Assembly (NCBI GenBank): GCA_017881315.1
Contig: JADGRB010000008.1
Coordinates: 1-47,711 of the forward strand
Source of the DNA: Pseudomonadota bacterium
GTDB lineage: Bacteria; Myxococcota_A; Polyangia; Fen-1088
Direction of reading: 5' to 3'
Length of the DNA: 47,711 nt
In this document: positions 869 to 4,822 of the stretch, in pieces
Layout: every line of letters begins with the position of its first letter
Numbering within the stretch: the first letter of the stretch is position 1
The notes under the pieces: generated by a model
What the model was told of the DNA's origin: nothing
Seen by the model: only the letters and a program-made list of their open reading frames with translations
Databases searched by the model: none
Program-made: the position numbers and the translations under genes

Positions 869-1521
869 TCCTCTACGACTACTGGCGCTCGAGCTCGGCC
901 TGGCGGGTGCGGCTCGCGCTGCATTTCAAAGGAATCGCCTTCGAGCGTCGCCCGATCGACCTCCTCGAGGACGGGGGTCGGCAACACGCGCCTGCGTTCC
1001 GCGCGCTCAATCCGCTGGGCCAGGTTCCGGTGCTGGTCGTCGACGACGCCCGCGGTCCGCGCACGATCGCGCAGTCGATGGCGATCCTCGCGTATCTGGA
1101 GGAGACGTTCCCGACTCCGCCGCTCCTGCCGGCCGATCCCTGGCTGCGCGCGCGGGCGCGGCAGCTGGCCGAAATGATCGTCGGCGGCATTCAGCCCTTC
1201 CACAACATGGCGACGCTGGCGCACGTACGCGGGCTGGGCATCACCGATCCGAACGTCTGGGCGGGACATTTCATCGCGCGCGGCCTCGCCGCGCTGGAGA
1301 CGACGGCCGCCGAAACGGCCGGCGCGTTCCTGGTCGGCGACGCGCCGAGCTTGGCCGACCTCTGCCTGGTCCCGCAGCTGTACGCGGGCCGCCGCTTCGC
1401 CGTCGATCTCACCCCCTACCCGATGCTCCTGCGCGTCGAGGCCACCGCCGCGTCGCTGCCGGCGTTCGTTGCCGCCCACCCGGATGTCCAGTCGGACGCG
1501 CGGCCCCCACAGAAATCGTGA
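865..1521 (+). CDS. maiA: maleylacetoacetate isomerase-like zeta-class GST
   Basis: A glutathione S-transferase with N-terminal thioredoxin fold (residues 1-80, NPLGQVPVLVVDD and the glutathione-binding QSMAILAYLEE) and a C-terminal helical domain ending in the usual DAPSLADLCLVPQLY motif. The sequence after the upstream stop reads LYDYWRSSSAWRVRLALHFKG, the zeta-class start with its catalytic Ser-Ser pair. No ATG, GTG or TTG precedes that motif; the first in-frame GTG (907) lies after it and would delete the active site. CTG at 865, overlapping the preceding TGA as CTGA, is therefore the best start, giving 218 residues, a normal family length. It would isomerise maleylacetoacetate to fumarylacetoacetate using glutathione, feeding the upstream hydrolase. 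Confidence 0.8.
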   Translation: MILYDYWRSSSAWRVRLALHFKGIAFERRPIDLLEDGGRQHAPAFRALNPLGQVPVLVVDDARGPRTIAQSMAILAYLEETFPTPPLLPADPWLRARARQLAEMIVGGIQPFHNMATLAHVRGLGITDPNVWAGHFIARGLAALETTAAETAGAFLVGDAPSLADLCLVPQLYAGRRFAVDLTPYPMLLRVEATAASLPAFVAAHPDVQSDARPPQKS

Positions 1522-1533
1522 CACCCTAGATCG

Positions 1534-2823
1534 ATGAATCGTGGCGGGAACAGACTGGCTTCGTTTGCATGGACATGGACCGCTCTGGCCGCAGCGTTTC
1601 TGCCGGCCTGCGGCGGCTCCGGCACCTCGGCCCCTGTCGGGGTCGAGCAATCCACCCAGGCGCGCATCACCGACCCGTCGGTCCCTGCGGGCGATGCAAC
1701 GGAGCTGGCCGCCGACAACCAGGCGTTCGCTGTCGACCTCTACCAGCAGCTGCGTTCCGGGGCCGGAGCCGACGACAACCTCGTATTTTCTCCGGTCAGC
1801 ATCTCGGTCGCGCTGGCGATGCTCTATAGCGGCGCCGAGACCGACACGGCGACCCAGATCGCCACGGCTCTGCACTTCACGCTGCCCCAGGATCGTCTGA
1901 ACGCCGCCTTCGACGCGCTCGATCTGGCGCTCACCACCCCGCCGTCCAGCAGCGACGCGGGGACGTTTCAGCTCTCGCTCGCGAACTCGACCTGGATGCA
2001 GCGCGACTTCGCGATCCTGCCGTCGTATCTCGATGTGCTCGCCGAGAGCTACGGGGCCGGCATCCATACCGTCGACTTCGCGTCCGCGCCCGATGATGCG
2101 CGCAACGCAATCAACGGCTGGGTGGCGAACGAGACCCAGAACCAGATCCCCACGCTGTTCCCACAGGGCTCGATCGATGATCTGACTCGGCTGGTTCTGG
2201 CGAACGCCGTCTACTTCCACGGCGACTGGGCCGTTCCCTTCGCCGGCAACAGCCCGAACGGCACCTTCCACGCCCCGTCGGGCGACGTCAGCGTTCCGAT
2301 GATGAAGGGCGAAGGCACTGCGACACTCTGGAGCGGTACGGGGTGGAGTGCCGCCTCCCTTCCTTACAAGGGCGGCACCGTGTCCATGGTGCTGGTTGTC
2401 CCCGACGCCGGGACCTTCGACGCGTTCGAGTCGGCGCTGACAGCCGAAGGTCTGGCGGCGATCCTGGCCAACGGGCAGCACGCGGGCGGCGACCTCTACA
2501 TGCCGCGCTTCAAGTTCTCGACGGCCAAATCGCTCTCCGATACCCTGACGGCGCTGGGGATGTCCGACGCGTTCGACCCCACGACTGCCGATCTCTCCGG
2601 CATCGACGGCACCAAGGACCTCTACGTCCAGGCGGTGGTCCATCAGGCAGACATCGCCGTCGACGAGAAGGGGACCACCGCCGCGGCGGCGACGGGCGTG
2701 GTGGTCGGAACGACGTCGATCGCCCTCAACAGCCTGAGCGTCGACCGGCCGTTTCTCTTCTTCATCGTGCACCAGCCGACCAGCGCGCTGCTGTTCGCGG
2801 GGCGCGTGGTCGATCCGTCATGA
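1534..2823 (+). CDS. serpin-family lipoprotein, copy 1
   Basis: A 429-residue protein with a lipoprotein signal (lipobox LPAC, Cys at about residue 26) and a complete serpin domain. The hinge reads VDEKGTTAAAATG, matching the inhibitory consensus (P17 Glu, P15 Gly, P14 Thr, small residues P12-P9), and the C-terminal signature is LSVDRPFLFFI. Counting from P17, the predicted scissile bond is Thr394-Ser395, suggesting an elastase-like rather than trypsin-like target. Serpins trap serine or cysteine proteases irreversibly; anchored on the outer envelope it would guard the cell surface. Its stop overlaps the start of a close paralogue by ATGA, so the two are co-transcribed after tandem duplication. 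The target protease is unknown. Confidence 0.9.
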   Translation: MNRGGNRLASFAWTWTALAAAFLPACGGSGTSAPVGVEQSTQARITDPSVPAGDATELAADNQAFAVDLYQQLRSGAGADDNLVFSPVSISVALAMLYSGAETDTATQIATALHFTLPQDRLNAAFDALDLALTTPPSSSDAGTFQLSLANSTWMQRDFAILPSYLDVLAESYGAGIHTVDFASAPDDARNAINGWVANETQNQIPTLFPQGSIDDLTRLVLANAVYFHGDWAVPFAGNSPNGTFHAPSGDVSVPMMKGEGTATLWSGTGWSAASLPYKGGTVSMVLVVPDAGTFDAFESALTAEGLAAILANGQHAGGDLYMPRFKFSTAKSLSDTLTALGMSDAFDPTTADLSGIDGTKDLYVQAVVHQADIAVDEKGTTAAAATGVVVGTTSIALNSLSVDRPFLFFIVHQPTSALLFAGRVVDPS

Positions 2824-4106
2824 GTCCGCGCGGAACCACTCGGTCCCTTTTCACGGCGGCCATCCTGCTGGTGGGATCTCTTCCGGCCTGCGGCGGCTCC
2901 CGGTCAGCAACCGTGGGGGTCGAGCAGTCCACGCAGACCCGCATCACCAACCCGTCTGTCCCAGCGGGCGATGGCATGCAGCTGGCGACGGACAACCGGG
3001 CTTTCGCGATCGATCTCTACCAGGCGCTGCGCGCCCAGGCGGCACCCGACGCCAACCTGGTGTTCTCACCCGCCAGCATCTCGCTCTCGCTGGCGATGCT
3101 CTGGAACGGAGCCGGGACCGAGACCGCCACCCAGATCGCCACGGCGTTGCACTTCACCTTGCCGGTGGATCGCCTGAACGCGGCGTTCGACGCGCTCGAT
3201 CTGGCGCTCACCACCCCGATCGGCAGCGACCCGGGGACCTTTCAACTGTCGTTGGCCAATTCCACCTGGGTCCAGAAGGACTTTCTCGTCTTGCCGTCGT
3301 ATCTCGACGTCCTCGCCCAAAGCTACGGCGCCGTCGTCAACACGGTCGACTTCCAGACCGCGCCCGAGGACGCGCGCAACGCGATCAACGGCTGGGTGGC
3401 CGGCCAGACCCAAAACCAGATCCCGAGGCTCTTTCCGGCGGGATCCATCAACGAGCTCACCCGCCTGGTCCTGGCGGACGCCGTCTACTTTCACGGCGAC
3501 TGGGTGACGCCGTTCAAGCCGGGGAGCCCGAACGGCACCTTCCACGCGCCGGCCGGCGACGTGAGCGTCCCGATGATGAGCGCCGAGGACAACGCGATGC
3601 TCTGGAGCGGCGCCGGGTGGAGCGCGGCGTCGCTCACCTACAGTGGCGCCGACACCTCGATGATCCTGGTCGTCCCCGATGCCGGGACCTTCGACAGCTT
3701 CGAGGCAGCGCTGACCACCGACGGCCTGGCGGCCATGATCGCCCCGGCCCAGCAGGCGACCGGAGCGCTGGCGATGCCACGCTTCAAGTTCTCGTCGGCG
3801 GAGAAGCTCAACGACACGCTGGCTGGCCTGGGAATGCCGGATGCCTTCGATCTCAGCCGCGCCGATCTCTCCGGCATCGATGGCGCCAAGGACCTCTACG
3901 TCCAGGATGTGGTCCATCAGGCCGACATCGCCGTCGACGAGAAGGGGACCACCGCCGCCGCCGCGACGGGTGTGGCGGTCGGAATAAAATCGGTCGCTCT
4001 CAACAGCCTGACCGTCGACCGGCCGTTTCTCTTCTTCATCGTGCACCAGCCGACCGGCGCGCTCCTCTTCGCCGGGCGCGTCGTCGATCCGTCCGCGTCC
4101 AACTGA
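2820..4106 (+). CDS. serpin-family lipoprotein, copy 2
   Basis: A 428-residue paralogue of the preceding serpin, colinear along its whole length, with its own lipobox (SLPAC, Cys near residue 24), the same inhibitory hinge EKGTTAAAATG and the signature LTVDRPFLFFI. The ATG at 2820 overlaps the upstream TGA; open sequence further upstream in this frame is a shadow of copy 1. The bait differs: the P2-P1 residues are Ile389-Lys390 followed by Ser, predicting inhibition of a trypsin-like protease. These codons are ATA and AAA, an AT-rich patch in an otherwise GC-rich gene. The pair thus seems to cover two protease specificities from the same surface-anchored scaffold. Confidence 0.9.
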   Translation: MSPRGTTRSLFTAAILLVGSLPACGGSRSATVGVEQSTQTRITNPSVPAGDGMQLATDNRAFAIDLYQALRAQAAPDANLVFSPASISLSLAMLWNGAGTETATQIATALHFTLPVDRLNAAFDALDLALTTPIGSDPGTFQLSLANSTWVQKDFLVLPSYLDVLAQSYGAVVNTVDFQTAPEDARNAINGWVAGQTQNQIPRLFPAGSINELTRLVLADAVYFHGDWVTPFKPGSPNGTFHAPAGDVSVPMMSAEDNAMLWSGAGWSAASLTYSGADTSMILVVPDAGTFDSFEAALTTDGLAAMIAPAQQATGALAMPRFKFSSAEKLNDTLAGLGMPDAFDLSRADLSGIDGAKDLYVQDVVHQADIAVDEKGTTAAAATGVAVGIKSVALNSLTVDRPFLFFIVHQPTGALLFAGRVVDPSASN

Positions 4107-4165: not shown

Positions 4166-4822
4166 ATGGCGCGACTGAACCGACCGATCAAGATCCTCAT
4201 CGCCCTGGTCGCGCTCGCGATCTTCGGCTTCCTCTTCGTGCGCTCGGCACGCGATTCGCGCGCCAACCCGTACACCCTCGAGCGCTCACAGCTGCAAGGA
4301 TGGACCGTGGCGCTCGAACCGGCTGCGGGCCCGAGCTCACCGCTGCTGGTGTTGACGCCGCCGCCCGAGCTGCTGAGCGGGCTCTTCAATCAGGTGTTCG
4401 CGCGGGCCATGGAGTCGCTGAGCACGCCGGCGCCTGGCGCGATTCCACTCCTGCTCGAGGGCGAGTTCGATCGCGCGTTCGCCGGCCACGTGACGCCAGA
4501 GGCGCTGGTGGCTGCGGCGCGAACCGCGGGCCTGGAATCGGCGAGCCTGGAGCCCCGCTGCATGGCTTACCGTCGGGTGAGCAATCCGGATCGCACCCGT
4601 CAGCTCTACTTCCTGCTCTTCGACGCGCCGCCGTTCCAACGATTTCGCGAGCAGATCGCCACCCTCCTGGACGCCGCCGCCGGCGGCCACCTCGACTACG
4701 ATCCGGCCGCGCTCTCGCCGGTGCTGTTCGTCGCCGCGACCGACACCGAATTCAACCGCTGGCTGCCGATGAAGGCGAACCCCGCGGTTGACTGCGTGGC
4801 CCCGATCTCGGCCGGCCCCTGA
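4166..4822 (+). CDS. hypothetical single-pass membrane protein
   Basis: A 218-residue protein not recognised from family motifs. Residues 7-26 (IKILIALVALAIFGFLFV) form an uncleaved N-terminal membrane anchor preceded by basic residues, so the body probably lies in the periplasm. The rest is soluble with alternating helices and strands and two cysteines (in EPRCMAY and VDCVAP) that could pair. It starts 59 nt after the second serpin gene on the same strand and could be in the same transcript. A palindromic element follows immediately and probably ends transcription. Confidence 0.6.
   Translation: MARLNRPIKILIALVALAIFGFLFVRSARDSRANPYTLERSQLQGWTVALEPAAGPSSPLLVLTPPPELLSGLFNQVFARAMESLSTPAPGAIPLLLEGEFDRAFAGHVTPEALVAAARTAGLESASLEPRCMAYRRVSNPDRTRQLYFLLFDAPPFQRFREQIATLLDAAAGGHLDYDPAALSPVLFVAATDTEFNRWLPMKANPAVDCVAPISAGP

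Follow-up and report, generated by a model that had tools for sequence, protein, structure and literature searches.

A serpin presents its loop to proteases, and a protease cutting at P1 becomes trapped once the loop has moved into the main sheet. It is well established that tandem serpins of animals diversify their baits. Miropin of Tannerella forsythia is a bacterial serpin that is also a lipoprotein. It belongs to Group T of the bacterial serpins (PMC8233489), and according to the title of a reference in PMC5127057 it uses different loop bonds. Inhibitory serpins have the hinge consensus ExGTEAAAA at P17-P9, with small residues at P12-P9; membrane-anchored prokaryotic serpins have already been noted, with no mention of Myxococcota (PMC8233489). 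In the tandem SERPINA arrays of rodents, paralogues vary in function and show diversifying selection (PMC12646145). In the literature searched, we found nothing on serpins of Myxococcota and no description of bait diversification of tandem serpins in bacteria.

Here, we analysed two neighbouring serpin genes of a bacterium of this phylum. They lie in a stretch of 47,711 nucleotides (contig JADGRB010000008.1), referred to as the window. We consider it probable that they encode inhibitory, lipid-anchored serpins that were duplicated in tandem and carry different bait residues at P1, with gene conversion keeping the hinge and the C-terminus alike.

Gene pair, predicted fold and lipoboxes

The first-pass annotation of the window had proposed tandem serpin ORFs, and both are present. 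Copy 1 (positions 1534..2823, 429 aa) and copy 2 (2820..4106, 428 aa), both predicted lipoproteins, overlap on the + strand, on which all window features given below lie; the start codon of copy 2 and the stop codon of copy 1 overlap in ATGA. Each matches the whole Pfam Serpin model (PF00079, cut-off of 27 bits), i.e., a full-length serpin domain: copy 1 with 344.9 bits (residues 61-428, profile 2-370 of 370) and copy 2 with 334.4 bits (profile 3-370 of 370). The structure prediction suggested by the annotation was run with AlphaFold2 and gave the serpin fold for both copies, with a pLDDT of 86.8 for copy 1 and 86.6 for copy 2 and a pTM of 0.85 for both. The low-confidence part of the domain was the loop, at residues 386-396 in copy 1, which includes its predicted P1 region, and at residues 382-387 in copy 2. 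When the model of copy 1 was used in Foldseek, 50 of 50 among the matches listed were serpins (best E 3.4e-37), and the nearest solved structures by sequence are serpins for both copies. The two proteins are 75% identical, far above chance, and are the only serpins in their own genome (5.47 Mb, 541 contigs).

In both copies, a basic and hydrophobic stretch precedes the lipobox LPAC, recognised by a simple pattern rather than a trained predictor. It is located at 1600..1611 in copy 1 (predicted lipidated Cys26) and at 2880..2891 in copy 2 (predicted lipidated Cys24). Such a lipobox points to a lipoprotein, leaving the membrane and its face unspecified.

Inhibitory hinge and predicted P1

Alignment with solved serpins placed the hinge P17-P9 at 2665..2691 in copy 1 and 3939..3965 in copy 2. 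It is identical in the two copies (EKGTTAAAA), as had been claimed; it departs from the consensus at P13 only, and the small residues at P12-P9 that mark an inhibitory hinge are found by sequence comparison in both copies. P1 was counted from P17, the Glu of EKGTTAAAA (residue 378 in copy 1 and 374 in copy 2). The count gave T394-S395 in copy 1 and K390-S391 in copy 2 as the predicted P1-P1', which are exactly the scissile bonds proposed earlier, and the view that the pair are paralogues, both predicted lipoproteins with an inhibitory hinge but each with its own predicted P1, was borne out. The P2-P1-P1' residues are Thr-Thr-Ser in copy 1 (ACG ACG TCG, 2710..2718), within the low-confidence loop, and Ile-Lys-Ser in copy 2 (ATA AAA TCG, 3984..3992). 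A P1 obtained by counting is a prediction, and a small P1 such as Thr leaves room for cleavage at a different bond of the loop.

The P2-P1 codons of copy 2 had been described as ATA AAA at 3984-3989, and the letters there are indeed ATAAAA. The AT patch AATAAAAT is real and is one of 14 A/T runs of six or more in the window, which has a GC content of 69.9%. In 12 coding sequences of the window, ATA accounts for 2/241 Ile codons and AAA for 13/151 Lys codons. Across 100 loops, P1 by counting was Thr in 24, Arg in 9, and Lys in 5; copy 1, with the most frequent residue, is thus typical, and copy 2 is less typical.

Locus and duplication history

A genome of the same genus (G001) has the gene order FAAH-GST-serpin-orf-orf-ntrC-HK, as at the window locus; FAAH, GST, orf4166, ntrC, and HK are the neighbours common to both. 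The conserved upstream neighbour is a glutathione S-transferase-like gene (907..1521, Pfam match, 87% identical), and the downstream one (4166..4822, 73% identical) encodes a 218-aa protein without a Pfam match. For the latter gene, dN/dS between the two genomes was 0.46, which is relatively high. An assembly artefact was rejected because synteny with this other genome holds on either side of the pair.

At this locus, G001 has a single serpin (L032/L040), and its second serpin is found on another contig (L033/L039). In the tree, L040 and copy 2 form a group (support 100/97) whose sister is copy 1; several wrongly trimmed rows appear there as long branches (e.g., L043, L049, and L050), and only the well-supported window clade was used. 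The reactive loop of L040 (..VGEKASV) has Lys at P1, as in copy 2, by the hinge count only, because one extra residue adjoins P1. In the case of L039, P2-P1-P1' is Thr-Thr-Ser, as in copy 1.

The dS between copy 1 and copy 2 was 0.63 (0.65 for the body only), compared with 0.45 overall between copy 2 and L040 and 0.33-0.70 for the neighbour genes. The body value for the pair is not below that for copy 2 and L040 and falls near the top of the neighbour range. The duplication therefore probably dates from around the split within the genus or from before it, and G001 would have lost copy 1 afterwards, the order of events being uncertain. A recent duplication inside the species was rejected, as the body dS of 0.65 is not below the 0.45 of copy 2 and its ortholog.

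Mosaic pattern of the two copies

The nucleotide identity of copy 2 and L040 was 0.91-0.93 in codon columns 200-320 and went down to 0.74 at 360-400. The identity of copy 1 and copy 2 was 0.70-0.75 and went up to 0.88-0.92 at codon columns 360-400. Odd-one-out sites, counted as copy 1 : L040, were 112:20 in columns 160-350 and 10:35 after them (Fisher 3e-14). For shared changes polarised with an outgroup, the ratio copy 2+L040 : copy 1+copy 2 shifted from 36:6 (codon columns 160-350) to 4:11 (columns 350-442; Fisher 5e-5). Segment trees favoured different topologies in a direction agreeing with the mosaic; the AU test rejected neither (p 0.11-0.16), so that gene conversion rests on the site patterns. 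The simplest reading of these is that the tandem copies underwent gene conversion across the hinge, loop, and C-terminus, with putative homogenised 3' blocks at 2593..2820 in copy 1 and 3867..4103 in copy 2, both with approximate borders.

The homogenised block that was compared (171 nt) contains 16 differences, 4 of which fall on the six P2-P1 bases and all change the amino acid. The hypergeometric probability of this clustering is 7e-4 with the site chosen beforehand and 0.11 when all 6-nt windows are scanned. The P2-P1 codons thus appear to be a local replacement hot spot in an otherwise homogenised block, significant only if the site is preset.

Selection on the loop and the body

In the window pair, dN was 0.178 for the body, 0 for the hinge, and 0.158 for the loop (P8-P7'). 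Loop-wide positive selection was rejected for this pair because dN is no higher in the loop than in the body. The body dN/dS of 0.27 indicates that both copies are under purifying selection. Ten arrays were then compared, using the closest pair of each. The pooled dN/dS was 0.29 for the body, 0.05 for the hinge, 0.66 for the loop, and 0.15 for the C-terminus, and the hinge dN was near zero across arrays (0.038). The loop pN exceeded the body pN in 9/10 arrays (Wilcoxon 0.004), the exception being the window pair. As the pooled loop value of 0.66 is below 1, much of the divergence of the loops could be due to relaxed constraint.

The first-pass annotation had interpreted the pair as specificity diversification after duplication and proposed dN/dS along the paralogues as a check. 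The interpretation stands in part: the P2-P1 hot spot and the faster loops of the other arrays, together with the pooled contrast of loop and body, agree with it, whereas the full loop of the window pair evolves no faster than the body.

The cleanest bait swap was seen in another array (L148, G070:C12), with tandem serpins at ~1485 and ~3432. Their bodies are 93% identical, and the loops differ by a substitution cluster and a 3-nt indel around P1 between near-identical flanks.

Serpins in Myxococcota

Serpins are encoded by 150/379 genomes sampled from Myxococcota. Among the long serpin ORFs of the window and its class relatives, a simple pattern detected a lipobox-like leader in 54/74, and tandem arrays of 2 to 5 serpins occur in at least nine genomes besides the window. 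Three genomes have arrays of 5 (G065), 3 (G405), and 3 (G254); the array size is 2 in the window and in each of G084, G070, G318, G339, G039, and G055. These counts and the ten arrays indicate that serpins are not unusual in this phylum and that the same applies to anchored tandem serpins, and the earlier statements that bacterial serpins are uncommon and lipid-anchored tandem pairs rarer still did not hold here.

The array of G065 (L144, G065:C1:3467500-3477500) has five serpin genes in a row, all with lipobox-like leaders and with five different loops. In the window's family, a second serpin clade (L044, L045, L051, L054, and L058) was observed. It has the hinge DEHGVEAAAAT or DEHGIEAAAAT, with Val/Ile instead of Thr at P14, and mostly lacks a lipobox by the pattern used.

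Proposed explanation and alternatives

Each copy would present its exposed loop as a bait, and a protease cutting at P1 would be trapped by loop insertion, as the fold and hinge suggest. With Lys at P1, copy 2 would be expected to act on trypsin-like proteases; copy 1, with Thr, may act on proteases preferring a small P1, e.g., elastase-like enzymes, or be cut elsewhere in the loop. The hinge and C-terminus of the neighbouring copies would be kept alike by gene conversion, while P2-P1 stayed or became different. The pair may protect the cell against its own or others' extracellular proteases. The own genome has 5 trypsin-like and 3 subtilisin-like protease matches, which makes self-protection possible; defence against foreign proteases is possible as well.

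Alternatively, the loop may be under loose constraint and the P1 difference a product of neutral drift, with the two copies inhibiting the same proteases via shared bonds and the duplication only raising the dose. We regard this as rather unlikely. It agrees with the loop dN of the window pair and with the pooled loop dN/dS; most residues around P1 are common to both loops, and the several loop bonds reported for miropin offer a parallel. However, the changes are concentrated on P2-P1 and not spread over the loop, both P1 states recur in the same-genus genome, and the hinge and C-terminus are strongly conserved. A binding, storage, or structural role of one or both copies, without inhibition, seems highly improbable: Thr replaces the usual Glu at P13, but AAAA at P12-P9, Gly at P15, and Thr at P14 are kept in both, matching the consensus save for P13 (PMC8233489), and the hinge dN across arrays is near zero.

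The reading as an inhibitory pair with different baits can be extended, with considerable doubt, to the phylum. The tandem lipid-anchored serpin arrays of Myxococcota might form a bait-diversifying system, in which duplication and conversion keep the trap uniform and P1-region residues are replaced under selection to match the proteases of prey, predators, or competitors as these change. The arrays, with 2 to 5 copies, a conserved body, and a changed bait, are natural loop swaps for studying how the specificity of bacterial serpins evolves, and they could also reveal which proteases these bacteria meet.

Comparison with known systems

Like miropin, the window serpins are bacterial and would trap proteases by the loop. 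Unlike the window pair, miropin comes from another phylum, and a tandem partner of it is unreported in the literature searched. The closest solved structures by sequence are conserpin, the bacterial-type serpin 8gxv, and human clade B (serpin B1 and B3), which have the same fold and hinge. Conserpin is designed and clade B eukaryotic, without a lipid anchor, whereas the window pair consists of bacterial predicted lipoproteins. The rodent SERPINA arrays are, like the window pair, tandem serpin duplicates; they encode secreted vertebrate proteins assayed against venom proteases (PMC12646145), whereas the pair described here consists of predicted lipoproteins of a bacterium.
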